This document shows, piece by piece, positions 7,573 to 33,132 of a stretch of 64,000 nucleotides of DNA. The DNA lies in assembly GCF_009827405.1 (NCBI RefSeq), contig NZ_WTYY01000002.1, forward strand, positions 496,001 through 560,000, given 5' to 3'. The stretch is from Alteraurantiacibacter aestuarii (GTDB taxonomy: Bacteria > Pseudomonadota > Alphaproteobacteria > Sphingomonadales > Sphingomonadaceae). Each line of letters opens with the position of its first letter. Positions within the stretch are counted from its first letter, which is position 1. The notes under the pieces are model-generated. The model did not search any database and was not told the origin of the DNA. It was given only the letters and a program-made list of their open reading frames with translations. Made by a program: the position numbers and the translations under genes.

Positions 7573-10500
7573 CTAGTCGCGGCGCGTACCGGCCTGGGGC
7601 ATGTCCACACGATCAGCCTCCAGTTTGACCAGTTCATCTTCGGAAACCTCGGCTGCGCGGGCATATCCGATGCGGGTGCCCAGCTTTGATGCCTCAGCCA
7701 GAATGATGCGTGCGGCGTCCTTCTCATTCCTGCTTGCCAGAATACGGCCCAGCAGCATGCGCAAACCGATCTTGCGCAACCCAAATCCATTGCGCGCCGC
7801 GATGGCCGAGGCATCAGAGACATATTCGAATGCCGAATCCGTATCCCCCAGCTTCAGTTGCAGGAAGGCGATCTGCTGCAACGCCTCGATCTGGAGGCGG
7901 TACATATCGCAGGCCGTGGCATAACGCAGGGTTTCCTTGAGCTGGGGCAGCATTTGCGCCTGGTGCCACTGTTCCTGCTCACGACTGGCGAGGTAGCCAT
8001 GTTCGCCCAGCGCGATCCGGCCAGAGTGATCGATATCGGTCTGCCGCGAAGGGCCAGCGCTGCTGACGCACAGGCGCTGCGCTTCCAGGGCATCATCCAT
8101 CTTGCGAAGCTGCCGCAACAGCGAAACATTGTGACGCTGAAAGATTGCAAAGGCGCGCTGTTCGCCCAGCAATTCCATCAACCTGATCGCATCCTTGAAA
8201 TAATTCTCCGCCGGAGCCAGCGCGCCGCGCAAATGCTGGCACACGCCGCGATAACCCATGACCAGGCCGATCCCCAGAAACAGGTTGGCGGGAAAATACT
8301 GGTCCACAGCGCGTGTCGAGCGTGAACCGCCCCGTTTGGAGAAATGCCGCAGAGCATAGTCCCGGAAGCTGTCATAGGGCCCGCCGGGCAGGCTCTTCCA
8401 CTGCTTGTCGCTCAAGACCAGTCGGGCGTCGTTCTCGATCGCGGTTTCGACTTCTCTCAGCAGTTCCTCGGCACCTTCGATCATGCCCTGATCGATGGAG
8501 ACCTGCACCAGATTGATGGCAATGCGCCGCCAATTGTGATGGCGCTCCCCGAATTCGATCCATTTCGTGTTGATGGCCTGCGCCTGTTCCAGCGCTTCGC
8601 GGGCTTCGATCAGCTTGCCTTGCGTAACGAGCACCACGCCCAGTTCATTGTAAAGCCAGCACAGATCATCGGCATAGAACGCCGGAGAGCCAAGTTGCTT
8701 GTTCAGCTTGTCCAGATCCTTGGGCGGACATTTGGCCCGCATCATGCCGCGCAGCAGGCTGCCCTGGTCGTGCAGGCGGATCAGCCGCCGCAGGCGATCC
8801 GCGTGATCGGTCAGCGGCGCATTGCGCAGCCATACATCCAGCCCGTGATTGCCCTGCATCAGCAGGGACGAGGTGGAGAAATAGCTGCGCATGAGAGAGA
8901 GGGCAGCGCGCAGACAATCCGCCTGCCGGGCAGAGCTCATGCTGGCAATCTGGGGCGGGGTCAGATCATGCAATAATGCGGACTTGAGCTCAACCTGATT
9001 GTCCCGCCGCAGTTGAACTGCCAGATGGTGGAGCAGTGGCAAGACTGGTGAGGGATCCTGATACTGGCCGCACAGGAAATCGACCATTCGGGCCAACTCG
9101 TCATGCCATTCCTGTTCAGGCAGCACGCTGTTGAGCGGTTGCGCCGCAAAAAGCCCCAGATTGAAGCCTGCGGCAAGCCGGGCATCGGACAGCGGCACGC
9201 CGTATCGCTCGCGAATCTCGGCAACCAGCGCCTTGTGCATGCCCACCCGGCGCACCTGGCCGGGAAAGGACTCGATATTCAGGACCATCCCGTTGGCGAT
9301 CAGCCAGTCCAGTTCAGTATCAACTTCCTTGATCCGGTCCTTAAACGCATCCTTTGTTTCGGGATTGCCCTTGCCCTGTTCGGTGGCGACAACATGGGCC
9401 AGCACATGGCGCTCCACCGGCTGACCAATGAACGCCAGTGACCTGAGGATGGCAAAGGCCATGTTTGGTCGGCTCTTGCCCACATGCTCTGCCACCCGGG
9501 CAAGAAACTCCTGCCGGGTAACCGTGGCGTCAACACTGGTGGGCGGACTGGCGGACAGGTGAAGGTTGCCCGCCAGATGTTCAAAGAAAGTTGGCCCATC
9601 GCTCGTGATCCTGAATTTTTCGCCAGTCTCAGGGTCAACGATGCTGGATGTCTTCGGCTCGCTATCACGGACCAGCTGCAATTCCTTGAAGCTGCCCGGT
9701 GCCACCTGTCCGACATATCGCAGCAGGCGCGGACTGCCGACCAGGATCAGCCGCAAACGCTTTTCCAGTCGCCTCCTCATATTCGGATGCATGAATGCAA
9801 AGGCGTTGGGAATGAAACGGATCAGCATGTCCAGTTCCGTGCTGAGCGCGGTCCCGTTGTGTGCCACGAACCGTTCCATGCCGTTGATGATAATCACCAG
9901 TTCCTCTACTTCTCCGTCCGGTTCCGCCGACAGCTGCGAATGGACCGACTTCATCAGAAAACTGTGCATCTGCATTGTTGCCGTGAGCCGACTCTGCGCT
10001 TCCTCGAACGCAGTCTGGCCGTCGTAGGCACCAGACAGAATCGCAAAGATCGAATCCGTCTCGGTCGCGAAGGATCCGTTGATGACGACAACCCGTGTGG
10101 AGTTCGTCCTGCCATTCAGAAGTGAGGTCGCGAAGGTTTCCGTCCAGCTCCCGCGCCCGCTTCCGGCCTTTCCGGTAACAACCAGCATGGCAGGAAGACC
10201 GCGCAGGTAAGCTGCCACCTCCCTGGCGCTTTCATCTGCCAGAGACGGCGGATCTTTCATCTCTGCATGCCAGATATTGATACGTTCCGGCCCGCCTTTG
10301 AACTTGAGCTGCGGATTGCGAATATCATCTGTGACCGGAAGCTGGGCCTTGGTCGTGCGGCACCATTGGGCAAGGTAGCGCAGAGGGAGTTCGAGCCGTA
10401 ACCCGTTACTGATCGCTTCATCCGGCGCCTTGGCCAACGCCTCGACATATTCATCGGCCTTGCCGGAGATTTCGGCGATCTCCTTGTCGAACAGGACAGA

Positions 10501-11502
10501 GACGCCCAGCTTGCGGTTGAACAGCAACCTGAGTGCCCGATCAGCATTGGCATTACCTTGGGATTTCCACAGCAGGAACATCGGCACTGAACGACGATTG
10601 GGATTGTCGCTCAGGAACTGTTCGAAATGCTTCATGATTTCCTGTTCGGACATGCCCAGCCCGACAAACAATATGGGATTGCCCGACAGGATCGTGCGCA
10701 ATCCATATTCGAACGGGAGCCTTGAAAAACCATTCTGCCAATAAAGATCGCGGTAGTCGCGCCGGGAGACGATCATGGTCTCTGGGCAATCCTTGCGCCC
10801 GTGGAGGTGCAGAATGCGGCAGCGCGTATCATCATCATGCAAGGCAAAACTGATGAGCTCTGCACTTTGCTTGCGCCCCAGAACCTCGCTCACTACCGGA
10901 CCAAAACCGGGAACCACGCGCTTCCTGACCGGGCCTTTGCCGCCAAAGCAGCTGTCAAGGATGTCCTTGCGTTGTTGCCCATCCTTCCCGGATTTGTCCT
11001 GCGGCCCGACAAATGCGGTCCACTCATGCTCAAGATCATAGTTGAGTGTAATTATCCGGCGCAGGCCCAGATCGTGTATCAGTGCGGATGAAACATCGGG
11101 CAGATGGCCAAAATCTTTCAACGATTTTGGCAATGCGAACTTGCTGGCCAGATCCTCGCGATTCTTGTTGAACGCCTCTACGTCCACATGCCGGTCAAGA
11201 TGCGCACTGAGTTCCGCAATATCCATCAGATCGGTATCGTCAAACTGCCGATTATTGTCCGCCATCATTGCCTTGAGCTGCGCGACGAGCTGCGGATCCT
11301 TTTTTTCAACAGAATCCAGATACCCGGCGCTCATTGAACCCCAGCTGTCATATCCCAGATGTTGCGAAGCATAGGAGCCGGTGAAGGCAATCATCCGGCC
11401 ACTGCGCAGGGCGATGGCAAACTTTTCATAGGCCCGCCGCCGCAACCGATTGGAATCGGCCTGACGATTGAGCAGATATGTCTGAATATAGGCTCCGTCC
11501 AT
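7573..11502 (-). CDS. SIR2 - P-loop (STAND-like) - helical repeat protein, putative anti-phage NADase
   Basis: 1309 residues. ATG at 11502 with a GGGGGG ribosome site 5 nt upstream. Residues about 30-310 form a SIR2_2-type domain: TGSYASQ at 41, ITLNYD with Asn154, LHLHG with candidate catalytic His234, and ILFVGLGMSE near 277. Residues about 410-650 resemble a STAND/AAA NTPase. The P-loop is GKAGSGRGS (444-452), with Arg where Lys is expected, and the Walker B-like strand LVIIINGMERF (535-545) has Asn for Asp. Residues about 850-1300 are TPR-like helical repeats, a typical sensor arm. SIR2-STAND proteins (Avs5/DSR-like) degrade NAD+ on sensing phage. That role is inferred from architecture. 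The two altered P-loop residues suggest weak or absent ATP hydrolysis. It is divergent from the peptidoglycan hydrolase pair. Confidence 0.75.
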   Translation of the reverse strand: MDGAYIQTYLLNRQADSNRLRRRAYEKFAIALRSGRMIAFTGSYASQHLGYDSWGSMSAGYLDSVEKKDPQLVAQLKAMMADNNRQFDDTDLMDIAELSAHLDRHVDVEAFNKNREDLASKFALPKSLKDFGHLPDVSSALIHDLGLRRIITLNYDLEHEWTAFVGPQDKSGKDGQQRKDILDSCFGGKGPVRKRVVPGFGPVVSEVLGRKQSAELISFALHDDDTRCRILHLHGRKDCPETMIVSRRDYRDLYWQNGFSRLPFEYGLRTILSGNPILFVGLGMSEQEIMKHFEQFLSDNPNRRSVPMFLLWKSQGNANADRALRLLFNRKLGVSVLFDKEIAEISGKADEYVEALAKAPDEAISNGLRLELPLRYLAQWCRTTKAQLPVTDDIRNPQLKFKGGPERINIWHAEMKDPPSLADESAREVAAYLRGLPAMLVVTGKAGSGRGSWTETFATSLLNGRTNSTRVVVINGSFATETDSIFAILSGAYDGQTAFEEAQSRLTATMQMHSFLMKSVHSQLSAEPDGEVEELVIIINGMERFVAHNGTALSTELDMLIRFIPNAFAFMHPNMRRRLEKRLRLILVGSPRLLRYVGQVAPGSFKELQLVRDSEPKTSSIVDPETGEKFRITSDGPTFFEHLAGNLHLSASPPTSVDATVTRQEFLARVAEHVGKSRPNMAFAILRSLAFIGQPVERHVLAHVVATEQGKGNPETKDAFKDRIKEVDTELDWLIANGMVLNIESFPGQVRRVGMHKALVAEIRERYGVPLSDARLAAGFNLGLFAAQPLNSVLPEQEWHDELARMVDFLCGQYQDPSPVLPLLHHLAVQLRRDNQVELKSALLHDLTPPQIASMSSARQADCLRAALSLMRSYFSTSSLLMQGNHGLDVWLRNAPLTDHADRLRRLIRLHDQGSLLRGMMRAKCPPKDLDKLNKQLGSPAFYADDLCWLYNELGVVLVTQGKLIEAREALEQAQAINTKWIEFGERHHNWRRIAINLVQVSIDQGMIEGAEELLREVETAIENDARLVLSDKQWKSLPGGPYDSFRDYALRHFSKRGGSRSTRAVDQYFPANLFLGIGLVMGYRGVCQHLRGALAPAENYFKDAIRLMELLGEQRAFAIFQRHNVSLLRQLRKMDDALEAQRLCVSSAGPSRQTDIDHSGRIALGEHGYLASREQEQWHQAQMLPQLKETLRYATACDMYRLQIEALQQIAFLQLKLGDTDSAFEYVSDASAIAARNGFGLRKIGLRMLLGRILASRNEKDAARIILAEASKLGTRIGYARAAEVSEDELVKLEADRVDMPQAGTRRD

Positions 11503-11786
11503 TTGCCCCCCAGCATTTCAACCAGCGCCTCACGCGCCGCCAGGCATCGTTCCATGCCTGCCTGTAACTTTCGTTCCCGGCGAGTTTTGGAGCAATAGCC
11601 CACGTTTACAAGTTCTTATTGGTCACCACCGCTTGAAATTGGGAGCCTTCTCTGCTGAATTCACAATCAAGCGTCCAAGTGAATACTGCTGCGGCAGGAT
11701 GAATTTGTTTTGGCTTCATCAGAATTTTCATTACAAACCAGCCTATTACGAAAGAAAAGACCGTCAGGATTGCAGTGGAGCCAGAC
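11503..11786. promoter_or_regulatory. AT-rich divergent intergenic region
   Basis: 284 bases between the start of the SIR2-STAND gene (minus) and the start of the muramidase gene (plus). The part from about 11600 to 11770 is much richer in A and T than the flanking coding DNA, as expected for divergent promoters and for horizontally acquired DNA. I could not pick a convincing -35/-10 pair. A possible small membrane-protein frame lies within it. Confidence 0.45.
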
Positions 11787-11788
11787 AT
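11606..11788 (-). CDS. Possible small single-pass membrane protein
   Basis: A 60-residue reading frame from ATG 11788 (MSGSTAILTVFSFVIGWFVM start) with one clear membrane helix (residues 4-21), then a Lys-containing polar tail ending VVTNKNL. A GGGAAG site sits about 9 nt upstream. It lies about 100 nt upstream of the SIR2-STAND gene in the same direction, and its ATG overlaps the ATG of the divergent muramidase gene by 2 nt. The stretch is clearly more AT-rich than its surroundings. It may be a real partner of the SIR2 gene or only a chance frame in a promoter region. Confidence 0.25.
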   Translation of the reverse strand: MSGSTAILTVFSFVIGWFVMKILMKPKQIHPAAAVFTWTLDCEFSREGSQFQAVVTNKNL

Positions 11789-12422
11789 GGCAAATGAACT
11801 TCCCATAAGCCGCAAGCAGGCGATCAAGGCCACAGAATGGCTGATCGAACATTTCCGCTCACCGATGGAACAGGCCGTGGTCGGCAAGCCTTACCGGCTC
11901 AAGCATCTGTGTGCGATCGCCTGTCAGGAAACGGCTTACCGGTGGGTCGGCTGGATCGATCACCATGACCCGGCGACGATACTTGCGCGCTGCGTGTTCG
12001 ATGCCAGCGGCGATGCACCCAATTCGTCCCGAGGTGTCAGGCCCGTCAACGCAGCAGCCTTTCGCGCCGATTTTGGCGATGAATTTGCCCAGCTGCTGAT
12101 AGATGAGGCGAACAAATATCGCCGCCTGATGAACTGGTCCGCCAGGGACTGGCTCTACAAGGGATACGGCATCTTCCAGTATGACCTGCAATATTGCTAC
12201 ACCGATCCGGACTTTTTCCGGGAGCGGAAGTGGTATGACTTCGGCAATTGCCTGGCCAAGGTCACAGGCGAACTGGATGAGAAGCTCAAGGCCCAGAACG
12301 GTGACCTGTGGGAAGCGATCCGCGCCTATAACGGGTCAGGCCCGCGGGCCCGCGCCTATCGCGAGAACGTGAAGGAATTCACGCCAATCTGTGCCGAGGT
12401 TACCGGCGACGACCAGCCTTGA
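11787..12422 (+). CDS. Lysozyme/transglycosylase-like peptidoglycan hydrolase
   Basis: 211 residues from ATG 11787, chosen because GGAG lies 6 nt upstream; the in-frame GTG at 11775 has no site. The core looks like a lysozyme/SLT fold. AIACQETAYRW gives candidate catalytic Glu48. GYGIFQYDLQY matches the G-x-x-Q substrate motif seen after the catalytic Glu in SLT and goose-type lysozymes. AIRAYNGSGPRARAYRENV matches the closing 'AYN-G' repeat of transglycosylases. No signal peptide is visible, so export would need phage-like lysis, a secretion device or a partner protein. It is followed 50 nt downstream by the Tae4-like amidase gene, so the pair would attack both glycan and peptide parts of the wall. 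The enzyme class is an inference from motifs. Confidence 0.6.
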   Translation: MANELPISRKQAIKATEWLIEHFRSPMEQAVVGKPYRLKHLCAIACQETAYRWVGWIDHHDPATILARCVFDASGDAPNSSRGVRPVNAAAFRADFGDEFAQLLIDEANKYRRLMNWSARDWLYKGYGIFQYDLQYCYTDPDFFRERKWYDFGNCLAKVTGELDEKLKAQNGDLWEAIRAYNGSGPRARAYRENVKEFTPICAEVTGDDQP

Positions 12423-12472
12423 GCACGATGCCGGCACTTCGCTTGCCGGCAGCTGAAAAATGGGAGGTGACA

Positions 12473-12976
12473 ATGGCAATTTCATTCAAACAACTGCAGG
12501 CTGATTATCCGGCCCAGTATGCTGACGACCCGGACCGGTCGCGCAAACATCTGTACACCAATATTCTGGGCGGCGGATTTGCCGATCTGGTCGATCATCC
12601 CGACTACCAGAACACCTGTGCCATACGCATGTCGGTGGCGTTCAACGCCTCGCCGTCGCCGGTCGCCAGGAAATACGGCGTTGCCGACGGTAATCACAAG
12701 GACAAGAACGGCAATCACATCATCATCAGGGTCCGCACTCTCCAGACCTTTCTGGAAGATGTGCTGGGCGCAGAAACCTGGGGCATGTCGAAGCAGCCGG
12801 GCACGCCGTTCAATTTCGCCGACGTGCCGCGCAAGACCGGCATACTGATGTATCACGCCAATTTTTCGGACGCTTCAGGACACGCCGATCTGTGGAACGG
12901 CAAGGGCTGCGTTTACAAATGCCCCGTGCCCCACGTGGCCAAGGCATTCGATTTCCGCCTCTGGGCCGTCAGCTAA
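12473..12976 (+). CDS. Tae4-family peptidoglycan amidase
   Basis: 167 residues from ATG 12473, with GGGAGGTGA directly upstream; a TTG at 12419 would overlap the previous gene. The sequence follows the type VI amidase effector 4 pattern along its whole length. LGGGFADLV leads to NTCAIRMSVAFN with candidate catalytic Cys49. GHADLWNGKGC then gives His137 and Asp139, followed by the C-x3-C pair Cys146/Cys150 and a closing LW motif. Tae4 enzymes cleave the D-Glu-mDAP bond of the peptidoglycan stem. No Tai4-type immunity gene and no type VI secretion gene is visible in the window. The pairing with a muramidase suggests a wall-lysis cassette. Family is confident from motifs; delivery route and target are unknown. 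Confidence 0.82.
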   Translation: MAISFKQLQADYPAQYADDPDRSRKHLYTNILGGGFADLVDHPDYQNTCAIRMSVAFNASPSPVARKYGVADGNHKDKNGNHIIIRVRTLQTFLEDVLGAETWGMSKQPGTPFNFADVPRKTGILMYHANFSDASGHADLWNGKGCVYKCPVPHVAKAFDFRLWAVS

Positions 12977-12986
12977 TTCGCCAGCG

Positions 12987-13010
12987 CCGCCAGCACGATC
13001 ATGCTGGCGG
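12987..13010. terminator. Hairpin between converging genes, possible bidirectional terminator
   Basis: Perfect 9-bp inverted repeat CCGCCAGCA - CGATCA - TGCTGGCGG. It lies just after the amidase stop (12976) and spans the stop codon of the opposing giant-protein gene (12999). There is no T-tract, so it is a candidate rather than a classical intrinsic terminator. Confidence 0.4.
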
Positions 13011-16000
13011 AACCTTGACCCTGAAAAGCGGGCCGATGGTGACGATGCGCTCGGCCGGTTCCAGATCGGGCTGCGCAGGATCGATCCAGCGCCTGGGCGT
13101 GTTCTGCCGCGCCGCCTCTGCCGAGGCCGGCATGGTTACCCGTTCAACCTCCAGCAGACGGATAAAGCAATTGTCGGAAACATCGCCTGCATCGAGCACG
13201 GTCAGCTCCTCATCATCAACATCGACCTCACGCACATGCAGCGGGCGCAGCTGTTCCTCGCCATTGATATCGCGAATGATGGTGCCCACCACCGCGACCA
13301 GACCGGAAATCAGATAGGGCGCATTGTCGTCCGGAGCGTGGTCGCGATGCACCTCCTGCAAATGCTTGAAATAGGCATGGGCGGCAGTGTCTTTCGGAGT
13401 GAGCCGAATTTCGCCTGAATCCGCTTCCCTTGTCCATTCGCCGCTATCTTGCGAGCCGGGCACCATCGCGCGCATCTGCACCCAGATTTCTGCCGACCAG
13501 GGTGAAACTCGCTCACCCGAACCATCTTCCACCAATGCGGGATCAAGCTCCGTGCGCACGCGAATGCGCGCCATGGTCCCGGGTCTGAGGGCGTATTCCG
13601 GCTTTCCGCCGATCACGGGATCGAGCAGCGCCATGGAGAAATTCATGATGGGCGCCGATGCGCCCGGCTCCAGCGTAGAGCCAAGGATCGCCGAACAGGG
13701 CAGACGTGCCGTGCCCTGACTTGTGCCACCCGGAGTCCACAGCTGGGGATCATGACCATCCCAGCTTTCGCTTCCCGGATCGCGCGTGGCAATGCGGCTG
13801 CGGTGCACGGCATCGCCGGTATCTGGCGCGGTGAACGGATTGCCGTCACCGTCGCTGCTGACACCGTCCATGCCGACCATCAGCGCTGCTGTCTCGCCCG
13901 GCTCGGCAAGATCCTGATCGCCCACGCGCACCAGTCTGCGCGGGATTTGCTCTATGCAGATCTCAGCCACCAGCCGCTCGGCCAGACCGCCGCCGTGATC
14001 GGTATCGAACATCGGGTGGTCGAGGAACAGCAGTATACCGCCCGAAGCCGCTCCCGGTGCGGCGGTTGAGAACATCGGAGCGGCCACGGCGATGCGCGGG
14101 GTGGGCAATCTTGCCGCACCCCGGCACGCCAGCCCTCGCCCGCGCCAGCCGCCCAGCGGATCGCCCGTGGATTGCGCTCCATTGGTTGCAGCAGAGGACA
14201 GGCGTGATGACACCTGCAGCTGCGCTTCAGTAAAGCCCAGTGGCCTGCGCAAGGCATCATACCGGCTTGTCAGGCGGCATCGTATCCGCATGTATCCGGC
14301 ACCGCGATCGCTGCGCTGGCCCAGGGCAAAAAGCTCGTCCTGCGCAAATGCACTGTGCTGCACCGGCGGTTCGGCCAGCCCGGACAGGCCGCGTCCGGAG
14401 AAATAGTCCTCCTCGAACTCCACGAAATCCTTGCTGCGTGCAGCATTCGGCCTCGGCCCCACCTCCTCCAGCTTGGTGAAATTCCGCGGCAGTCCGTCGG
14501 GCAGCACCGGACCCCCATCCCAGATCCACGCCTGCCGTACCGTCTCGATCCGGCCGACATAATCGAAGGTTTCGTCATCCATTTCGGGAGACAGGCGCGC
14601 GATGGTGACGCCATTTGCGTCTTCTATGCGCATGGCCTTCCACACCGCCTCTGGCGTGGGCATGTCATCGGTCGCTGGCAGGCATTCGAAGGCCAGCACG
14701 GCGGCGCCAAATTCGCGATAGGGCTTGCCCGCGATGGCCCGGCCCAGATCACCAAAGCGCCGATCCACGCCCTCCTCGAAGAAGCCGCTGTCCACCACCG
14801 TGCGGATTTCGACCAGAAACTGCTGGCCCGCTGGCAGGGTGATAGCGAGTTTCTTGCCGACAACAGACAGGTCGGCAACCGTAGCCGGATCAACGGAAGA
14901 CGTGCTTGTGGCCTCTATCCGCTCACCGGCCGCCAGCGCGATATGTTTGGTATCTGCGATCTCCAGCCTGGCGCTTTTGCTGATCCGGTCGGGCTTGATC
15001 GCCCAAAGACGCACAACCACGCCGCCGTTACCGCTGGCCGCACCGGCCACGCCCGAAACCACGGCCGGGTCATCGACTTCTTCACTTTGCGGGCGTTCCT
15101 CCATGAGGCTTGCGGTAAAATCGCCGTCGCGCCGCACCCAGTACTGCCAGACCAGCGGATCGCTGACGTAGCCTTGCGTGCCTTGCTGGCCGAGCGCGAG
15201 CGAAGCGGGGGCAATGGTAAAACTGACCGAGCTTCGTTCTGCCTCCCGCCCCGGCAATGCCAACGGATCGAGGAACACCGTGGCAGCTTCCCGGGCAAGG
15301 TCCTGTGCTGCCTGATCCGGACAGTGGGAGAGATATTCCTTCCACAGCGGGCGCACCAATTTGTCTTCGCGGCGGCCCAGAGTCAGCGGCCTGTCCTGCA
15401 TATCCGCCCGATGGTTGAGCAGCCGCGGCGCACCCGGCTCCAGCGTTCGCAGCGGGGTGTTCTGCTTGATGATGGTCCTTTCAACACCCTGCGCGGCGGC
15501 AAATTGCGCCAGCATCTCGCCAGAGAATACCAGCGGCTGTTCCGGATCGCAGAATGCCGCCGGCATGGCACCGCCCAGCCCCTGATATCCGATCACGGTC
15601 TGATAGGTGCGGCCATAGGCAATTTCCGGCAGCGCATCCCCGGAGCCCGCAGGTGGCTGGCACAGAAAGGTGAACTGCGGCTCGAACGGCTCCGCCTCAT
15701 CCTGTTCAACCGGATTGCCGCGATCGGCGAACGGGATCATGCTTTCCCCGCGATAATGGGCGATGGCCTGGCGCGTCTCTTTCCCCGCCACATCGACCGT
15801 CAGATCGAAACTGACCGGGATCGGAACGGTGCAATCGCCGAACGGCAGGGACACCCCGTCCTGACCCTTCTGCAAGGTGACGCTGGCCTTGTTGGCAAGG
15901 ATGAAAGGACCCTGATCGCCCTTGGAGATATCGCGCACGGCAAGGCAATAGCCATCGACGATCTCGTGTATCTGGCCGGCGGCCTCATCTGCAAAGATCG

Positions 16001-17420
16001 CATCGGCCATGTGCACAATCCCGGTTTCTGCGACCCTGTCGACGCCGGGAGCAGCATCAAAGACGCTCTTCACAAGCCCTTCTGCCATGGTGTTGAGGCG
16101 CGGTAGCCACGCGGCATCCAGACCAAGCGCCGCCTGGACCTGCGGCCCAAAATTCTTGCGGAAAGCATCCATCGCCTGCTTCCGGTCATCGCCGGCTGCA
16201 GCGCATTCTGTCACGATCACTTCCAGCAGTCCGCCCTTGTGCGTGGCAATCGCAGTGCACATGCCACTGTCGCGCAGGGCGAGAATATTCTCGCTGTTGT
16301 TGAGCCAGTTCGATGCCAGATCGAAAATCGCCTTCGTCTCTGGCTTAGGGGGAGGGAGGACAGAACGCATCGTGGCAGCAAACATGGAGAGAAGCCCGTC
16401 CGCTTCGTAGCGTTCACGGATTTCTCCTGCTGTCGGCAGCGACGAGCTTGCAGGCCCGGAAATTTCAAGGACGATAGCCTTGGCAAGTCCGTCGTGCATC
16501 ACCGCCAGCCTGCTCGCCCATTCATCGGCGAATTTCATCTCCTCAGATTTCAGGTTGAAGAAGACGGCACCGGACTGGCACGCGCGCACCAGTGTTTCAT
16601 CGGTCAGGCCAGCAAGAAGGGACATGACCGCACTTTCCAGATTGTCTCTGGTCAGCGGAGCAGGCGCGTGATCGTCATGCATGTCCAGAAACCGCCCGAC
16701 GGGATCGAGCGCCCGGCCCAGTCTGACCGCCAGCTGCGCCAGCCAGTTATTCTTGGTCTGCCAATCTGCGGGATATTTGACCAGCCGGGTTATGCCGTTG
16801 ATCGGTTCCTTCCAGGATTTCAGCTCAGCAACCGGGATATCGGTATCGCGCTCTATGATGACCTTGACCCGAATCGTTCGGCCATCGACGTGAAGATCGC
16901 CTGTCTGGTCGCTGGTGAAACGGGTTCCGCCAATCTCAATGGAATCCAGATTCGGGAGTGCCGGCTCATCCTCGCCAAAGGAGAACAGATAGGCCAGTCC
17001 CAGGCCGTGGGATATTTGCGGTGCAGCCCTCGACAGCTGGATCAAAACTCCAGGCCAGCGCGGATCTTCCTCATCCTCCGTGGCCATCTCTTCATCGTCC
17101 ATCTGCGCGCCGGTGGCAGACATATCCAATGTCAGCAGGTGCCTGCGTTCCCAGTCGATTGCGGTGAGCAGCGCGTCAAGCGGGGGACAATCAGCGACAT
17201 GGCCAATGGTGTTGACAGGGGACGCACCCGACCACGTGCACAGCCATTTCCACGGCTTGAGCATGGCATCGCGCACATCGGCATAATCTGCCTCATCGCC
17301 AGCCGGATCATCGCTGGTGAGCACCGGGAACAGCGTCAGCCCCATGTAACTGTGGCCCACGCCCGCAGGATCGGTCGAACACGGGGCAGTTTCCATCTGG
17401 ACGGTCAAAGTGAAGGTCAT
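12999..17420 (-). CDS. Giant protein of unknown function (1473 aa), second gene of a two-gene operon
   Basis: Start taken as ATG 17420 (MTFTLTVQMETAPC), with GGGAGGA 9 nt upstream. A longer frame from 17519 would overlap the upstream gene and begin with Arg/Ser-rich nonsense. No signal peptide, membrane helix or known catalytic motif was recognised. The protein mixes acidic helical stretches (MDDEEMATEDEEDPRW near residue 105) with long beta-rich parts. A Gly/Asp-rich segment (FLDHPMFDTDHGGGLAE) lies roughly at residue 1150. It begins 16 nt after the stop of the 2258-residue gene, so the two are almost certainly co-expressed. Size and composition suggest a structural or scaffold protein. This is not an assignment. 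Confidence 0.8.
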   Translation of the reverse strand: MTFTLTVQMETAPCSTDPAGVGHSYMGLTLFPVLTSDDPAGDEADYADVRDAMLKPWKWLCTWSGASPVNTIGHVADCPPLDALLTAIDWERRHLLTLDMSATGAQMDDEEMATEDEEDPRWPGVLIQLSRAAPQISHGLGLAYLFSFGEDEPALPNLDSIEIGGTRFTSDQTGDLHVDGRTIRVKVIIERDTDIPVAELKSWKEPINGITRLVKYPADWQTKNNWLAQLAVRLGRALDPVGRFLDMHDDHAPAPLTRDNLESAVMSLLAGLTDETLVRACQSGAVFFNLKSEEMKFADEWASRLAVMHDGLAKAIVLEISGPASSSLPTAGEIRERYEADGLLSMFAATMRSVLPPPKPETKAIFDLASNWLNNSENILALRDSGMCTAIATHKGGLLEVIVTECAAAGDDRKQAMDAFRKNFGPQVQAALGLDAAWLPRLNTMAEGLVKSVFDAAPGVDRVAETGIVHMADAIFADEAAGQIHEIVDGYCLAVRDISKGDQGPFILANKASVTLQKGQDGVSLPFGDCTVPIPVSFDLTVDVAGKETRQAIAHYRGESMIPFADRGNPVEQDEAEPFEPQFTFLCQPPAGSGDALPEIAYGRTYQTVIGYQGLGGAMPAAFCDPEQPLVFSGEMLAQFAAAQGVERTIIKQNTPLRTLEPGAPRLLNHRADMQDRPLTLGRREDKLVRPLWKEYLSHCPDQAAQDLAREAATVFLDPLALPGREAERSSVSFTIAPASLALGQQGTQGYVSDPLVWQYWVRRDGDFTASLMEERPQSEEVDDPAVVSGVAGAASGNGGVVVRLWAIKPDRISKSARLEIADTKHIALAAGERIEATSTSSVDPATVADLSVVGKKLAITLPAGQQFLVEIRTVVDSGFFEEGVDRRFGDLGRAIAGKPYREFGAAVLAFECLPATDDMPTPEAVWKAMRIEDANGVTIARLSPEMDDETFDYVGRIETVRQAWIWDGGPVLPDGLPRNFTKLEEVGPRPNAARSKDFVEFEEDYFSGRGLSGLAEPPVQHSAFAQDELFALGQRSDRGAGYMRIRCRLTSRYDALRRPLGFTEAQLQVSSRLSSAATNGAQSTGDPLGGWRGRGLACRGAARLPTPRIAVAAPMFSTAAPGAASGGILLFLDHPMFDTDHGGGLAERLVAEICIEQIPRRLVRVGDQDLAEPGETAALMVGMDGVSSDGDGNPFTAPDTGDAVHRSRIATRDPGSESWDGHDPQLWTPGGTSQGTARLPCSAILGSTLEPGASAPIMNFSMALLDPVIGGKPEYALRPGTMARIRVRTELDPALVEDGSGERVSPWSAEIWVQMRAMVPGSQDSGEWTREADSGEIRLTPKDTAAHAYFKHLQEVHRDHAPDDNAPYLISGLVAVVGTIIRDINGEEQLRPLHVREVDVDDEELTVLDAGDVSDNCFIRLLEVERVTMPASAEAARQNTPRRWIDPAQPDLEPAERIVTIGPLFRVKVPPA

Positions 17421-17436
17421 CGGTCTGGATCCTCCC

Positions 17437-20400
17437 TCAAGTGAGCTTGTAGGTGAATGAGCGGGAGAACTTCTTCTTGTAGAAGCGGCTGATCTTGACC
17501 TGCACCTTGACGTAGCCATGGCCGAGCATCTTGCTGCCGTTATAGGTGATCTGCATGCGCACGGTCAGGCTGACAGTGACAAAGCCCCATGCGGTGACAG
17601 AGCCGTTGATCACGATCAGCGCGCTGATGTTGAGCCGGGCAGCCGATCCGCGGGAGACATAATGCGCTTCAAAACCGGCATAGACGATCACCGATCCGCG
17701 CAGTGGACCAAGCGAGAAGCCGGCACCCGCCGTCACGCCGATGCTGACAGTCACCGCCAGCGTCGTCTTGCCCGTGTCAGGACGATGGGTCGCCTCAGCC
17801 TCCAGATAGCCACCGCCGCCAAGCCAGGTGATGATCAGCGCAAACGGGCTGGCCTTGCGACCGAAATAGGCGAAGGTGCGTATCTCGAAATCATCGCGAA
17901 TGAGCAGGTCCAGATGGACCCCCATGCCCACATTCAGCGCGGTGGCAGCGCCGATGGTGATGATTGTGGGCGGCAGGTCATAGGTTGACCGCAGGCCGAT
18001 GGGGCGGCCGTTTTCATCCTGTGCGATCATGATCTTGAGCGGATCGTCCTCGCCGCCATTCATCGTGGACACAAGGTCCGTCATCAGCTTCATCGCGCCG
18101 GGAAATTCGATCTTGCCGGGATCGATATCGAAGCTGGTGCCGCTTTCCGGCGTGTAGCGAATGGCAGCGTCGCGAATGCGCACCACGCGAATTCCGCCCA
18201 TTTCCAGCACCCAGTCGGACACCAGGCTGGCCTTCACCTGCCGATCCTCGCCGCCGTTCAGGCCGCGCTCGTATCGTGCGACAGCATCCAGCCGCAGCTT
18301 CTCCGCCGTCAGGGCAAAGGCCTCCTGCCGGAAAAGGTCGGCGCGGCTGGACTTGTATTCGATGCTGGCCTGCATCCATGCGGAATTGCGCTTCTGGTCA
18401 TAGCCGTGCGAAATCTTGACCGCCTTGGCGAACTTCTCGTCCAGCTCCACATGCGGAAGCATGCTCTTGATCCCGGCAAAGTCCTTCAGGACATCCTTGG
18501 CCTTGAACTTGACTTCATCCAGCAGGTCCTGGGACTCTCTGGCCAGATTCTTGACGATCTTGTCAGCCGGAGCCAGCAGGCGGTCCCCAATCGCCAGTGT
18601 CGGCAAGGCCAGGCCAACGCCGCGCAAGGCCCGGTCTGCCTGATCGACAAAGGCAGTGACCGGCGTGACCACCACTTCCTTGTATTGCCGCTCAAAATGA
18701 TAGGCGATCTTCTCGCGGTTGAAGACCAGTTGCTCGACAATCGGCGGTGCGCCGGCAGCGCGCAGCAGGTTGAGCGACACCGCCTCGCCAAGAGTTTGCG
18801 GCTTTGCGGGATCGAATTCCCCGTCGATCAGGTCCTCAACGCCCTGGCGGATCTGGTCTGTACCTGTGCGCAGGGCCAGGACCAGCTTTTCTGCCTTCTC
18901 CTTCAGCTCGACAGGATCGGTAATCGCATCGATCTTGGCGCAGATATCGGCAACCGCATCCTTGCCCAGCGCCAGCAACGCATCGAGGAATTCATTGGCC
19001 GAAGCCAGAGCCGCGCAGATTTCGGTGCTGACCGTATCGACCTGCGTCCTGGCGCTGGCCAGTTCTGCCTTGAGCTCCCCAAGCTTGCCCGTCACTTCGC
19101 CGATCAGGTCTTGGGGATAGGCAGTCGCGTCTTCATACTGGCTCTCGATCTGATCCAGCTGGGTAAGAACCTTGCCCGTCGCCTCGTCCAGCGGCGGCGA
19201 GATTGCCGCCAGGGCAATATCGAGCTGATCGGTAATTGCGGTTGCAGCACCTTCACAATCACTGAGGACTTTGGTCCTGATTTCCTCGCCCTGTCGGTCG
19301 ATTTCTTCCTGCAGAGCATCAAGACGATCAACAACCAGTTTCAGCGGCTCCTTGCCCAAATCGAGCAGGCTGTCCGCCTGATCCAGGATCACCAGCGCCT
19401 CCGCCTTCAGGTCTTCAATCCCGTCGCCGCTTGCGCTGGCAATATCAGCCAGCAGCAAGTCCATCTGCGAAGTGGTCTGGCTGATCCGGTCGGAAAGAAC
19501 GCGGCCATTGTCCAGCATGGCAACACGCTGTTGACCGATTTGTTCAGCGACGCCGCGCAGCAGCAAGGATGCCTTGGGAACTGATTTCGCAATCTTCTTC
19601 GCATTTGCTTCCAGCTGCGATCCAGCGCGCAGCAGCCCGGCATCGGCTGACGCCAGTGCCGCTTCAAACCGGGCCCGCAGGTCCACAGAGCGTGTGCCGA
19701 ACTCGTCGCGCAGCCGCGGCAGGAAGGCCTGAATATCGGCCCCTTGTACGGCAATTTCCGTCCGCAGGATTTTCGCCTTGCCGCGCAGTTCCGCCGCCTC
19801 TGATTCCAGGACGTTTCTGGCCGCATTGATCTGCGTTTCGATTTCGGCTTTCAGCCTGTCAAACTGACCCAGAAGCGCGTCCACCTGCTCCCTGGCTTCG
19901 TCAGCAATCGGGCTGAGCTTGCGCCGAACGAAGGAATCGAACGGCGTCAGCGCCGCGATCTTGCGCCTCAGTTCCTGTACCGGCCTGATGGTCTTGTCGG
20001 CACGCGCATCCCACTGCGCCTTTGTCGGCAGCTGCCCGGTGCGGTTCTTCAGCCAGGACTCCGCCTGCGCCAACTCCTCCGATGGCCGGTGCACCCAGGC
20101 GCACATCTGGGTAAATTGTTCTTTCCCGGGAAGCAGGTTTTTCAGCTTCAGGACTTCCGCCTTGAGCTTTCCTTTGAGGGCATCCGGGTCATTCTGCGAC
20201 GGATCCCGCGCCAGCTCGGCGATGGTATTTGCCAGGTGCGGAACTTCTTCGACCTTGGCAATCGTATCATCGGGCACCGCGCCGGGCGCCTTTTCCGCGC
20301 GCATGATGGTGACGGTGTTGAGATCGGCCATCATCGGCTTTTCGCCGCGCCCATATGTCAGGTTGACGCCCGGGCCGGGTTCCAGCCGAAGGGTAAACCG

Positions 20401-23400
20401 CTCCAACCCCGGAGCGGTGACCTGCGCCGGAGGCAACATGGCACCGGGCCGCGCTGGATTGCTGAAATTGCAGTTGCGCAGTTTGCCACCCGACAGCGGA
20501 TCATCGAGCGACCGGTCGACGAAGTCGAGGCCATAGACCAGCGGCCACTCGTCAATATTCCCACTGGGGTCGCCGGGCGTTCCATCGGCACCGAAAACCG
20601 TGGTTATGGTGTAGAAATTCAGCCGCTCAGGGTCCTCGATCCGCCGCCCGGCCGGTTCAGGCTCGGCACGCTCGGGATCTGTGGCGATGAGGATTTCGGC
20701 TACTGGCCGCGGGTAGATATCCGCCTCCAGCCCGCGCTTCCACAAGGGGATCGAATACCCCTTTGGCCCGCTACCCTTCGGGCGGGGCAGCGCCTGCGCC
20801 CAGCTTCCCTCGACCGGAATCCGCTTCGATCGGAACCGTGCACCCAGGATCGGCCCGCTGTTGAGCGATGTCGCGCCTACCGTATCTGGATAGGTGCGCA
20901 GCGGCTGTTCGATCTCGATATATTCCTCGACCTTGCGAACAATCGGGCGGCCAAGGTGATGTTGCTGCCCCTTTCCGGCGAACTGCAGGCCAGGCAGCAT
21001 CGAACGGCGATAGACGATCACGTGTTTGGCCCGGTGATGGAGCGCGCCGATGCGGCCCTTGCGCTCAAAGCGCACTTCGCTGACGCGGCCCATTTCCAGT
21101 TCCGGAGTGATCAGCGTCAGGTCATTGTTGAACCGGGCTTTCTGCCGCGTCCAGGCTCCCAGTGCCGACAGCATCAGCCGCTCGACTTCGCCATGGCCGT
21201 TGCGGGAATCGCGCAGCAAGGCGCGGATCATTTCGTCGATCTCGAAACCGGCCAGCGCGCCGCCCAGTATGCCGCCCTGCTCGCCAGCGGTCCACCAGTT
21301 GGGCTGCGGCCAATCGGACTTGGTGGGTTGGACATAGCGGCCACCGCGATCCTTTGATCGCAGACCGTAATTCACATCTTCGATGACAAGGCCGGCCTGC
21401 ACGTCCTGTTCGTGCCGCGCGTCATAAATGGCCAGCCTGGTGGACGCGGCGAGGACGGATTTGCGCCACGCCATGTCTCGCCCGCGTTCATTGGATAGCT
21501 GCGGTTCGCGCGGATTCCCCCGCCACCCGCCCAGTTCGGCAATGCGGATGCCGCTGGTCAGGGTGCGGCTTATTTCCAGACCGTACAGCGCTTCCAGCTG
21601 GACGATCTCGATCATCCGCGCACCGGGCAGATCGCTGTCGGTCTCACTCAGGATCTGGCGAATGTTCCACGGCGCCAGAGGCTGCCGGGCGCGCTCCTCG
21701 CTCTCTATCCTCAGCCGCGTTGGCGGCGGCAGGCGGGCCGGGACACGGCTGTCATGGCCAATCTGATCGGGCGGAAGGTAACCGGCGCTGCGTTCCCACG
21801 CCTCTGCCACGCCTTGCGGCGGCAAATGCAGCAGGATTTCCGGCATTTGCGTGGCGCCTGCCCAGATCAGCCGCCAGCGGTCCTCCCCCGGATTCCATCG
21901 GGCGACAATGGCGTTGGTATCGCTCGCACGCCCGGGACGCGAAGTGACCACGGTGGCGATACTCATGGGCGAGGCGTCGATCACCGTTACATCGATCTCG
22001 TCCGGCAGCGCCTGTTCAGTCAGGGGTCCGGCCTGTTCGGTCAGGGGTCCGGCGTGCGGCTCCAGCGCAATCTCGATCAGTCGGCTTGCCTGATCCGAGG
22101 CAATCCTGTCACGCAGGACGATGGAGGCTTGCCCCAGCAAGGGCGATGCAAACACCAGCGGTTGCAGTTCCAGCGGGACGGCATAGCCATCCTGCCCGAC
22201 CACATTCACCGCCAATGCGCTCAGGCGGATTGCACCGTCAATTTCATAGCTCCACCGATCGCGCTGGGCGATCCTGGCGGGGCTGATGGTGAATTTCGAC
22301 TGATCGCCATCGAGCACTGGCTGCACGATTTCGAGGCCGCCGATACGAATGGCGTCGGACGTGGTGTCAGCCTGCTGTTTGGCAGTCGTTCTGCTGGATG
22401 ACAGAAAGGAAAGGTCCGTGGCCTCATCCAGTTGCCAGCCGGTCCCCAGCTTCCAACTGGCGAGGTATTTTTCTCCGGCATCGATGCTGCCAATGGCATC
22501 GACCGCAAGTGTTTTGCCGCGATGATTGCCGAGCGACAGGAACTTCAGCTGCGCCAGTTCAAGCTTCTGCGCGCCCGCCACCGGCAAGGGGCTGGAGAAA
22601 TATCCATTCCTGTCCACCGCATCGCTGGCCTTGAACAGGCATGCCGTGTTCACAAAGCCGGGTGCGAACTGCGGCTGGCACTGCGCCGGCCCCAATGTGA
22701 CCGGATCGCTCCAGTCTTCACTGGCATTGAGCTGGAGCACCCATTTGCCCGGTGCGACAAGCCCCTCCGCATCAGGCTCCACAAAGCCGACCAGATCGGG
22801 CAGCAGGCTGAAATCCGAACGGTCCGCAAACTGGCGATTGCCCTCACGCAGGGCTTCGGCCACACGCCGCGACCACAGATCGGCCGCGTGATAATCGGTT
22901 AAGCCCTCGATCCAGATCGTGCTGTGCTGGCAGGTTCGGGACGCATCATGGTTGGAAGCATTGCCCTGCCTGTCCCATTCCCCCTGCCGTACGCGGATCA
23001 GCGCCGGACTTCTAACGTCGGGGGTACATTCCAGCATGACCCAGCGGCGCCATTCAAGGCCCGTCCAGCCGCCGTCGCTGACCATTCGCGTGTGCATGTA
23101 ATGGAAGGGTCTGGCCTTGCCATCCAGCGCATCGCTGGCGATCGGCACGTCCACTTTTGCGGTCTTCAGGCCCGCCAGTTCCAGCAGGCCGATAACCGGA
23201 TCAACATCGGGGACAGGGTTCTGATGCGGACTTGCAGGCGCAAGCGCGGCAAGCACCGGGCGCGAATTGCTGGCTGGATTGGCCGCCAGACCGGCAATCA
23301 TGTCATCCAGATCGGGGAAATCGCCGTGATCGAATGACTTGTTTTTCTGCGCCCACCACAAGCCGTCAGCAAGACTGACCGCCTGCCTTTCGCGAATGCT

Positions 23401-24480: not shown

Positions 24481-25131
24481 ATGGGGAGAGCCAATTTCGT
24501 CCGTGGAGATGCTGATTTCCGCCGCCAGAGCCTGATCGCGGCGGCGGCCGCCTGCCTTGCAGAGGACGGCGCGAAGGGCATTTCGGTGCGCACGATCTGC
24601 CGCCGCGCGGGCGTTTCCGCCGGCCTGTTGACCCATTATTTCGACGGCATAGATGACCTGATCATCGAAACCTACCGCGATACAGGCGCCAGGGTCGCCA
24701 ACGCCGTGGAGCAGGCGGTGAGCCAGGCAGGCGATGATCCGCGCGCCCGGCTGGAAGCCTATGTCACCGCCAGTTTCCGTCCACCCGTGCTCGATCCGGC
24801 GTTGCTGTCCACCTGGCTCGCCTTCTGGAGTCTGGTGAAGTCGGACCCGCAGATCGCCGCCGTGCACGAGGAGATTTACGCCGCGTTCAGGAGCGGGCTG
24901 GAACAGCTGCTGCGCGATTGCTGGGGCGAAGATGCCGATGCCAACGCCGTGCGGCTGGCGGCGATTGCCATCAATGCGCTGGTGGACGGACTATGGCTGG
25001 AGCTGTGCCTGGACGAGCGCGGGCCTTTCAGCGCCGACGAGGCCCGCGCAATCGTGCTGGAATCGCTGGGTTCACTGCTGGCGCGCGGACCCGCGCCCGC
25101 CCGCTCACCGGCGCAGGATACGCCCCAATAG
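24481..25131 (+). CDS. TetR family regulator, BetI-like
   Basis: 216 residues. The N-terminal helix-turn-helix spans residues about 17-57 (SVRTICRRAGVSAGLLTHYF). The remainder is a ligand-binding domain of the BetI/TetR_C_6 type, with the STWLAFWSLVKSDPQIAAVH and NALVDGLWLELCL signatures seen in choline/betaine and polyamine repressors. The ATG has no good ribosome site, so the exact start is uncertain. The last 27 bases overlap the end of the converging oxidoreductase gene. It is the only TetR gene near the catabolic island and is the natural candidate to bind the shared inverted repeats before 26712/26797, 33133 and 53708 (inference). Confidence 0.85.
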   Translation: MGRANFVRGDADFRRQSLIAAAAACLAEDGAKGISVRTICRRAGVSAGLLTHYFDGIDDLIIETYRDTGARVANAVEQAVSQAGDDPRARLEAYVTASFRPPVLDPALLSTWLAFWSLVKSDPQIAAVHEEIYAAFRSGLEQLLRDCWGEDADANAVRLAAIAINALVDGLWLELCLDERGPFSADEARAIVLESLGSLLARGPAPARSPAQDTPQ

Positions 25132-26712: not shown

Positions 26713-26726
26713 ATCACCTCGCTTGC

Positions 26727-26740
26727 TTTACAAGTGTAAA
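26727..26740. promoter_or_regulatory. Candidate TetR operator 1 (TTTAC-N4-GTAAA)
   Basis: Perfect inverted repeat TTTAC-AAGT-GTAAA between the divergent oxidoreductase (26712) and amidohydrolase (26797) starts. The same half-sites with the same 4-base spacer occur before 33133 and 53708. Confidence 0.55.
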
Positions 26741-26796
26741 CCTATAGGTTCAGCGCTGCAACACAAGCAAGTGACAGGCATCAAAAGGGGATCAAT

Positions 26797-30086: not shown

Positions 30087-30222
30087 GGCTGCTGTCCTTG
30101 CAATTGAAACTTTCGCCATTGCTGCGCCATTCCCGGGATAGTTTCAAGCGCTGCAGTAGCGAATGCGGCCATTCGCGATCTAAATGGTTTCTTGCCGAAA
30201 CAAGCGGGCCTAGGATCGCAGG

Positions 30223-30246
30223 CCTGCCAGATAACCTGCCAGATAA
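30223..30246. repeat. 12-bp tandem direct repeat in the aminotransferase leader
   Basis: Two adjacent copies of CCTGCCAGATAA directly before the ribosome site of the aminotransferase gene. This could be a regulator site or a slippage duplication. Confidence 0.6.
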
Positions 30247-30257
30247 AGGGTCGGCTG

Positions 30258-31625: not shown

Positions 31626-31654
31626 ATGCAGCATTGAAACGAAAGGAACGCGCC

Positions 31655-33049: not shown

Positions 33050-33086
33050 GCAATTGCAGATCGGCGCCACGGCCCGATTGAAACAC

Positions 33087-33106
33087 TGTTTTACGTCTGT
33101 TAAACA
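33087..33106. promoter_or_regulatory. Candidate TetR operator 2
   Basis: Inverted repeat TGTTTTAC-GTCT-GTTAAACA (7 of 8 positions pair) starting 46 nt before the second FAD oxidoreductase gene. A second, overlapping dyad ACGTCT-N8-AGACGT spans 33093-33112. Confidence 0.55.
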
Positions 33107-33132
33107 AGACGTCTGACAGCGAGAGGAAGTTC

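Follow-up and report, generated by a model that had tools for sequence, protein, structure and literature searches.

The open reading frame under study lies on the reverse strand of a 64,000-nucleotide stretch of the Alteraurantiacibacter aestuarii genome (the window), and its 1309 codons are open throughout. The product combines, from N- to C-terminus, a SIR2 domain, a STAND-like module and a TPR superhelix (Table 1).

Table 1. Features of the SIR2-STAND-TPR gene and their positions in the window
Feature	Positions	Strand	Evidence
SIR2-STAND-TPR gene, 1309 aa	7573..11502	(-)	ORF and Pfam
SIR2 domain, residues 17-387	10342..11454	(-)	Pfam SIR2_2 at 150-319; DSR2 and ThsA fold matches
Asn154, predicted SIR2 catalytic Asn (TLNYD)	11041..11043	(-)	41/41 aligned members
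His234, predicted SIR2 catalytic His (LHLHG)	10801..10803	(-)	41/41 aligned members
STAND-like module (P-loop domain, helical domain, winged helix), residues 394-817	9052..10323	(-)	Fold match to 6mfv, MalT, Apaf-1, NRC1; model confidence low after residue 768
Altered Walker A GKAGSGRGS, residues 444-452 (Arg450 = 10153-10155)	10147..10173	(-)	Sequence
Altered Walker B ELVIIINGME, residues 534-543 (Asn540; acid Glu543 retained)	9874..9903	(-)	Sequence, family alignment
MHD-like motif RVGMHK, residues 752-757, His756	9232..9249	(-)	His in 37/41; directly N-terminal of helix 757-767 in model
TPR superhelix, residues 856-1300, predicted sensor	7603..8937	(-)	AF2 model; MalT domain III match

An earlier note, made from the letters, had described an N-terminal SIR2 domain, a central NTPase and C-terminal helical repeats, and this description stands. 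In Pfam, SIR2_2 was matched well above its cut-off (9.4e-14, 52.1 bits against 24.5) and TPR_12 at residues 947-1019 (7e-11). The match of AAA_22 at residues 438-595 was weak (0.0059, 17.4 bits, below the cut-off of 27), and in NCBIfam no match was found up to E 1. The AlphaFold2 model of residues 1-833 is of moderate quality (pLDDT 72.4, pTM 0.55), so the packing of the domains is unsure; the values for the TPR part are 81.0 and 0.84. The model supports the domain order and the folds. Residues 18-387 resemble DSR2 (8wy8, Z 19.9) and the N-terminal part resembles ThsA (8bto, Z 19.3). The STAND-like module resembles the STAND-TPR protein PH0952 (6mfv, Z 14.3), MalT (Z 13.2) and Apaf-1 (Z 13.1), and the TPR superhelix resembles MalT domain III (Z 22.7). 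Residues 18-613 also match EfAvs5 (9jap) with Z 14.8 and an rmsd of 7.4.

The likeness to phage sensors, which the note had also proposed, is one of fold. PADLOC (PADLOC-DB 2.0.0) matched the SIR2 stretch of the query alone, and weakly, to LmuA (1.4e-05), Dsr1 (0.0032) and ThsA (0.02); for four relatives, most of the matches to models of SIR2 type (LmuA, ThsA, Dsr1 and PDC-S25) were weak to moderate. Membership in Avs5, DSR1, ThsA or LmuA was dropped, the PADLOC matches being confined to the SIR2 stretch of the query. No PADLOC model named for Avs5 was matched up to E 1, and the family profile, run against PDB sequences to the same limit, listed no Avs5 chain, both searches being without a positive control. 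Pfam, searched to E 1 within the filters of HMMER, did not list the nSTAND3 domain (PF20720).

Comparison with individual systems gives a mosaic of likenesses. The SIR2 NADases DSR2, ThsA and KomC share the SIR2 fold (Z 18.5 to 19.9) and the Asn and His, the match being carried by the SIR2 part of the query; none of the three is known to have a STAND P-loop module. PH0952, MalT and Apaf-1 share the order of P-loop, helical domain and winged helix, and the first two are STAND proteins with a TPR sensor. All three have canonical Walker motifs and are not known to carry a SIR2 effector. Avs5 (AVAST type 5) has the same order of SIR2, STAND and C-terminal repeats in a single chain but is reported to have the nSTAND3 domain. 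PaAvs5-1 is reported to keep GPAGSGKT, unlike the query, and its Walker B-like motif contains a single acid; protection survives the change of Glu410 (Walker B) to Gln and is lost when Glu410 or Lys363 is changed to Ala (PMC12931631). A degenerate Walker B, such as the query bears, is thus tolerated in PaAvs5-1. The SAMD9 family has a variant SIR2-like domain, a STAND-like P-loop with the Lys replaced and a TPR array, but there the replacement is Gly and in the query family Arg or His (PMC5445408). The SAMD9 core also has AlbA_2 and OB-fold domains, neither of which is among the Pfam matches of the query, and the SIR2 catalytic residues, as a further difference, are kept in the query family. 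Membership in the SAMD9 family was rejected on the Pfam result and on the Arg in place of Gly in the P-loop. LypA of Caulobacter, a CARD-NLR-like protein, is another bacterial immune-type ATPase domain without the conserved Walker residues that is apparently still required, since its authors think the pocket is needed; it differs in having a peptidase effector and a three-gene system, and SIR2 is not mentioned in the text on it (PMC13236601).

The note had reported that the P-loop Lys is replaced by Arg and the Walker B Asp by Asn, and both readings are correct. The P-loop, G444-K-A-G447-S-G449-R450-G451-S, departs from GxxxxGK[ST] in having Arg for Lys and Gly for Ser/Thr. In the model it is placed as expected, between strand 439-443 and helix 450-463. 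The Walker B strand, I-I-I-N540-G-M-E543, has lost the first acid and retains the acid at +3; strand 534-540 of the model ends at N540, again as expected. The stretch IIINGMER does not conform to the NACHT form of Walker B, hhhhD[GAS]hDE (PMC12258605). The Asn540 codon (AAC) is one step from an Asp codon.

A scan of genome contigs with the single sequence found no relative; an alignment of nine rows lacked a sufficiently conserved stretch, and one of three rows led to 37 loci. Near full-length relatives exist (L011, 29.5% over 3-1294; L046, from Robiginitomaculum and the closest in the sample, 39% over 1069 columns), so the observation is more than chance. Residues were counted in an alignment of 41 members, of which 40 have a residue at the Walker B position. 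The Walker B acid is missing in 39 of these 40, Asn being present in 27, and Gly directly follows the P-loop Lys position in 40/41. A single outlier, L077, keeps both canonical residues. Residue 450 is basic in all members (Lys in 30, Arg in 9, His in 2), and the change from Lys to Arg or His is sporadic, with at least seven changes on a 40-row tree. Judged from this alignment, the changes in Walker A and Walker B are different in kind. The earlier note had treated both as oddities of one protein; in our sample the Walker B change is family-wide, and only the Lys to Arg change is local and recurrent. NACHT proteins of the same class have GK[ST] and D-G-x-D-E in eight of nine cases, the ninth being unreadable by the pattern.

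The pocket is eroded at more sites than the note had it, as two other positions vary: position 444, the first glycine of the P-loop, has kept Gly in only 14/41 members and has Ala in 23, and Arg occurs in only 16/41 at position 592, which directly follows the presumed sensor-1 strand. Other residues are kept, namely Gly447 (41/41), Gly449 (40/41), the basic residue 450, the +3 acid of Walker B (36/40) and the MHD-like His, which argues for selection on the pocket and against decay. The alignment thus looks like that of a clade of nucleotide-holding switches under selection, not of a single decayed protein. Every aligned member keeps the SIR2 residues Asn154 and His234. The GxG motif of this domain reads G42-S-Y44 in the query, its second glycine being changed: the position holds Tyr, Met or Leu in 11/11 members of the query's branch, and Gly in 29/41 overall. 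Loss of this glycine could weaken NAD+ binding.

We favor the view, to our mind evenly poised between right and wrong, that the protein is a single-gene NLR-like suicide receptor in which a nucleotide-holding STAND-like switch drives a SIR2 NADase. While the switch is closed, the nucleotide, most likely ADP, would be held by whichever basic residue the P-loop carries (Lys, Arg or His) together with the His of the winged helix. The TPR superhelix, the predicted sensor, would sense the trigger, probably a phage protein. The trigger would open the switch and copies of the protein would assemble. Assembly would activate the SIR2 domains, these would consume NAD+, and the infected cell would stop. 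Since nearly the whole sampled family is without the Walker B acid and without the usual Ser/Thr next to the P-loop Lys, the switch probably hydrolyses little or nothing and depends on nucleotide binding, exchange or release; binding without hydrolysis fits the motif pattern. More tentatively, the proteins may form a clade of NLR-like SIR2 receptors, mostly of Alphaproteobacteria, in which STAND hydrolysis was lost by selection, leaving a nucleotide lock that works once, without Mg2+, and is read by the His of the winged helix. The P-loop Lys would then have been swapped repeatedly for Arg or His because the charge alone is still needed.

The family bears on the question of whether NLR-like receptors work by ATP hydrolysis or by nucleotide binding and exchange alone. 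Nearly all of its sampled members naturally lack the usual Mg2+-binding residues and keep much of the remaining pocket. As its members carry Lys, Arg or His in the P-loop, the question can be addressed in native proteins. The family would also add a SIR2 branch unnamed in PADLOC-DB 2.0.0, and among the titles and abstract openings listed by our searches of the open-licence literature we found no description of it or of its Walker pattern.

It is doubtful that the P-loop domain is a dead scaffold without nucleotide, the protein being activated purely by assembly through the TPR part in the manner of DSR2, which is not known to have a STAND-type motor. DSR2 is the nearest SIR2 fold, both Walker motifs are degenerate, and the first P-loop glycine is lost in 27/41 members, but over a deep tree the family keeps Gly447, Gly449, a basic residue 450, the +3 acid of Walker B and the His of the winged helix, none of which a pure scaffold would need. 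An ordinary ATP-hydrolysing STAND switch is unlikely. Here Arg450 would act for Lys, and the lost acid might be replaced in Mg2+ binding and catalysis by Glu543, which corresponds to the second acid in motifs of NACHT type. However, both usual Mg2+ ligands are absent nearly throughout, and in RecA-type ATPases turnover, but not ATP binding, is usually lost when the Walker A Lys becomes Arg. What favors such a switch is the high conservation of the +3 acid and of a basic residue 450, together with the single acid noted for the Walker B-like motif of PaAvs5-1 (PMC12931631).

The distribution of the family is patchy: matches were found in at least 4/148, at least 6/385 and at least 3/398 genomes, the genome of the query being included each time and few candidates being scored per genome. 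The GC content across the gene is 0.54-0.60, and the region from about 7.46 to 24.48 kb of the window has no match in the fetched stretches of three congeners. On these grounds we call the gene accessory. In one congener (G015) 421 bases separate the regulator gene from the FAD gene and one of the two is inverted relative to the window, and in two others (G004 and G031) the right flank alone is matched; the region is thus better called accessory than a proven insertion. The accessory neighbors of the query are a Tae4-like amidase, a 215-aa gene and two giant unknown proteins.

A role in phage defense is suggested by the fold match to phage sensors and by the defense-type genes that adjoin some relatives; housekeeping genes surround some close relatives. 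We think it quite improbable that the protein serves instead in SIR2-based signaling or regulation, or serves neighboring accessory genes. Consistent with such a role, no known defense gene was seen beside the query copy, the Tae4-like gene begins 0.9 kb away, and the GxG motif is changed. Against it, besides the defense-type genes just mentioned, is a comparison of seven neighbor proteins of the window with 471 selected neighbor ORFs of relatives, in which the TPR regulator alone was matched, to a TPR protein. A sequencing error or a gene in decay is barely credible even in an incomplete genome (69.7%), because no base of the Arg450 codon (CGC) agrees with either Lys codon, which a single wrong base does not explain, the frame is open, and the same substitutions are present in other genomes.

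Some relatives have a candidate partner gene (about 700-950 aa), found at most 1.3 kb away in 9/40 of their loci. A two-gene system was rejected for the query because no such neighbor was seen next to it in the window. All nine loci encode SIR2 proteins of more than 2000 aa, none of them in the query's branch. Of five partner copies searched in Pfam, the one at L065 had no match, three had weak AAA matches, and that at L010 carries a RyR domain.

The query behaves like a SIR2-STAND receptor, yet it is filed neither as a STAND NTPase nor as an Avs5 member, because tests for the canonical STAND NTPase motifs and for the Avs5 nSTAND3 domain found neither in it. Its Pfam matches are SIR2_2 (9.4e-14) and TPR_12 (7e-11), with AAA_22 weak (0.0059, below its cut-off); no Avs5 model or chain was listed up to E 1 by the PADLOC and PDB profile searches. 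The open frame, these two matches and the motif counts bear out what the earlier note had observed in the sequence. Its interpretation, a SIR2-STAND-like defence protein that may bind nucleotide without hydrolysis or sense in a new way, is partly supported: the SIR2, STAND and TPR folds agree with it, and binding without hydrolysis would fit the motif pattern.

Structure matches were obtained with Foldseek, followed by a second look at PDB chains that gave Z scores. In the AlphaFold2 model of residues 1-833 (34 sequences; mean pLDDT 72.4, pTM 0.55), residues 18-387 match DSR2 (8wy8; Z 19.9, rmsd 3.6, 277 aligned) and residues 394-817 match 6mfv, a STAND protein with a TPR sensor (Z 14.3, rmsd 4.3, 271 aligned). 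The model also matches ThsA (8bto; Z 19.3, rmsd 4.0, 268 aligned), EfAvs5 (9jap, over 18-613; Z 14.8, rmsd 7.4, 393 aligned) and, among STAND-type proteins, MalT (8bob, Z 13.2), Apaf-1 (3sfz, 13.1) and the NRC1 NB-ARC domain (12.8). Residues 740-1309 (32 sequences) were modelled as a TPR superhelix (pLDDT 81.0, pTM 0.84); its best matches are to chain O in APC/C entries (Z 23.3), followed by MalT domain III (1hz4, Z 22.7). TPR arrays of unrelated proteins readily match one another, and fold likeness proves no function.

Relatives were collected from genome samples, plasmid records and 37 genome_contigs loci. From 49 loci with a matching ORF, duplicates (L042, L066, L074, L076) and fragments or short matches (L035, L038, L039, L040, L055) were dropped, leaving 40 relatives and, with the query, 41 rows; since near-identical pairs were retained (L045/L048, L050/L062, L063/L065), the motif counts are not fully independent. 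Alphaproteobacterial titles stand on 31 of the 37 genome_contigs loci, a share biased by search patterns derived from alphaproteobacterial sequences. L072, titled Binataceae, equals L076, titled Xanthobacteraceae, in protein length and score, and metagenome-bin titles may err. Counting the own genome each time, a relative occurs in at least 4 of 148, 6 of 385 and 3 of 398 genomes, with two candidates scored per genome in the last two samples; part of the genome-sample hits span the SIR2 region only.

The Walker A glycines are well kept (Gly447 41/41, Gly449 40/41), and residue 450 is Lys in 30 rows, Arg in 9 and His in 2. Position 444 is more varied (Ala 23, Gly 14, Phe 2, Val 1, Trp 1), and position 451 (K+1) is Gly in 40 rows and Ser in one. 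Most rows read hhhh-N-[GA]-h-[ED] at Walker B, without the first acid but with the acid three residues on: position 540 is Asn in 27, Ser in 4, Gly in 3, and Thr, His, Cys, Tyr, Leu and Asp once each (gap 1), and position 543 is Glu in 23, Asp in 13 and Gly in 4 (gap 1). The outlier L077 alone combines Asp540 with Ser451. Position 592, directly after the presumed sensor-1 strand, is Arg in 16/41, and winged-helix position 756 is His in 37 and Pro in 3 (gap 1). Alignment A3, a second one with 34 rows, is concordant: at position 450 it has 25 Lys, 7 Arg and 2 His, and at 540, among the 33 rows that have a residue, 21 Asn and 1 Asp. The NACHT form of Walker B is given as hhhhD[GAS]hDE in PMC12258605. 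As a control, 9 NACHT proteins were found at E <= 1e-8 in 289 genomes of the same class; GK[ST] and D-G-x-D-E were read by pattern in eight, and the ninth (L114) escaped the pattern.

With the first Walker B acid lost and Gly at K+1, both usual Mg2+ ligands are, by sequence, gone. Adenylate kinases also have GKG, so a loss of activity is not certain, and Glu543 could support ATP hydrolysis. Retention of Gly447/Gly449, an always basic residue 450, the +3 acid and the MHD-like His argues for a nucleotide pocket under selection, against which the frequent loss of Gly444 speaks. For plant NLRs, PMC8813719 describes the MHD motif as required for ADP binding, places the WHD in contact with the beta-phosphate of ADP in resting ZAR1, and regards a sensor-1 Arg as seemingly needed for ATP binding; if 592 is the sensor-1 equivalent, its poor Arg conservation would fit ADP over ATP. 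In PaAvs5-1, immunity is abolished by Lys363 to Ala and Glu410 to Ala, not by Glu410 to Gln, and the authors take Walker B to serve chiefly nucleotide binding (PMC12931631). In SAMD9 proteins, which also carry TPRs and a variant SIR2, the P-loop Lys is replaced by Gly (PMC5445408). On these grounds we favour a switch in which nucleotide binding or exchange would release the NADase activity of SIR2. Within this scheme the binding of nucleotide, the NADase reaction, assembly and triggering by phage are inferences.

Asn154, Asp156, His234 and Gly281 are each present in 41/41 rows. Position 44 of the SIR2 glycine motif is Gly in 29, Met in 7, Tyr in 2 and Leu in 2 (gap 1), and is Y, M or L throughout the query's branch of 11 (window 11371-11373 and ten relatives), which comprises ten on the tree and L047, a contig-end fragment placed by similarity. 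With the second GxG glycine replaced, the branch's NAD+ pocket may differ; the change could weaken NAD+ binding, which counts against an NADase receptor.

In a quick tree built with IQ-TREE from 40 rows (L047 omitted, Walker columns excluded), residue 450 requires at least 7 changes among Lys, Arg and His, and the presence of the Walker B acid one, so the acid loss looks old and the Lys exchange recent and recurrent, gain and loss being indistinguishable in such counts. Asn versus other residues at 540 requires 11 changes. The query's sister, L046, has Lys at 450; L077, L073, L060 and L051 are on long branches and unsurely placed.

GC is 0.54-0.60 over the query gene and its upstream flank vs about 0.64 around, and 0.59-0.61 at 15.7-20 kb. 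The source assembly (G000; 2.24 Mb, 69.7% complete) holds the window at G000:C2:496001-560000. Between about 7.46 and 24.48 kb, blastn gave no match above 120 bases in fetched stretches of three congeners; the right flank is matched in all three, the left in G015 only. Among 114 neighbour proteins of relatives (the nearest of 370 candidates, one antisense ORF swapped for the annotated gene), PADLOC at 1e-8, with 25 of 108 families listed, gave among others PtuA, PtuB, mad3, DrmD, a BrxH/DpdJ-type helicase and REase_II, mostly 1-2 proteins per model. On rescanning ten, a mad3-like gene adjoins L032 and a helicase L034; eight of them had no match at 1e-15. Such neighbours lend slight support to a defence role. 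Close relatives, e.g. L011 and L049, adjoin translation-factor genes outside visible defence islands, which counts against a defence receptor.

Beside long SIR2 relatives, a related gene of ~700-950 aa stands in 9/40 loci, none in the query's branch. The L010 copy has a RyR domain, and 3/4 other scanned copies have weak AAA matches; a two-gene system is possible.

Coordinates of the query gene, its neighbours and the possible partner gene
Feature	Sequence	Position	Strand	Remark
SIR2-STAND-like-TPR gene	window	7573-11502	-	single open frame, 1309 codons
215-aa gene	window	11775-12422	+	directly before Tae4-like gene; one weak Pfam match
Tae4-like amidase gene	window	12419-12976	+	Pfam 8.1e-19
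1506-aa giant protein gene	window	12999-17519	-	
2258-aa giant protein gene	window	17437-24213	-	
Partner-gene copy	L054	5474-7657		
Partner-gene copy	L056	5092-7185		
Partner-gene copy	L057	5189-7507		
Partner-gene copy	L059	2922-5042		
Partner-gene copy	L061	5214-7379		
Partner-gene copy	L063	5319-7406		
Partner-gene copy	L064	5328-7412		
Partner-gene copy	L065	4957-7407		
Partner-gene copy	L010	544-3384		

Tae4-like amidases are usually type VI secretion effectors; a VipB sheath gene was not found in the own genome, at its 69.7% completeness. The 215-aa protein looks lysozyme- or transglycosylase-like by eye, has no PHROGs match and has a relative in 1/98 other genomes searched. For the two giant proteins Pfam and PHROGs gave nothing convincing; the 2258-aa protein has matches in 2/98 other genomes searched, one marginal. 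Further on, the block at 24481-38400 encodes peptidases, a Rieske dioxygenase and two paralogues that resemble FAD amine oxidoreductases; portions of it match the congeners G004, G015 and G031 in differing arrangements.
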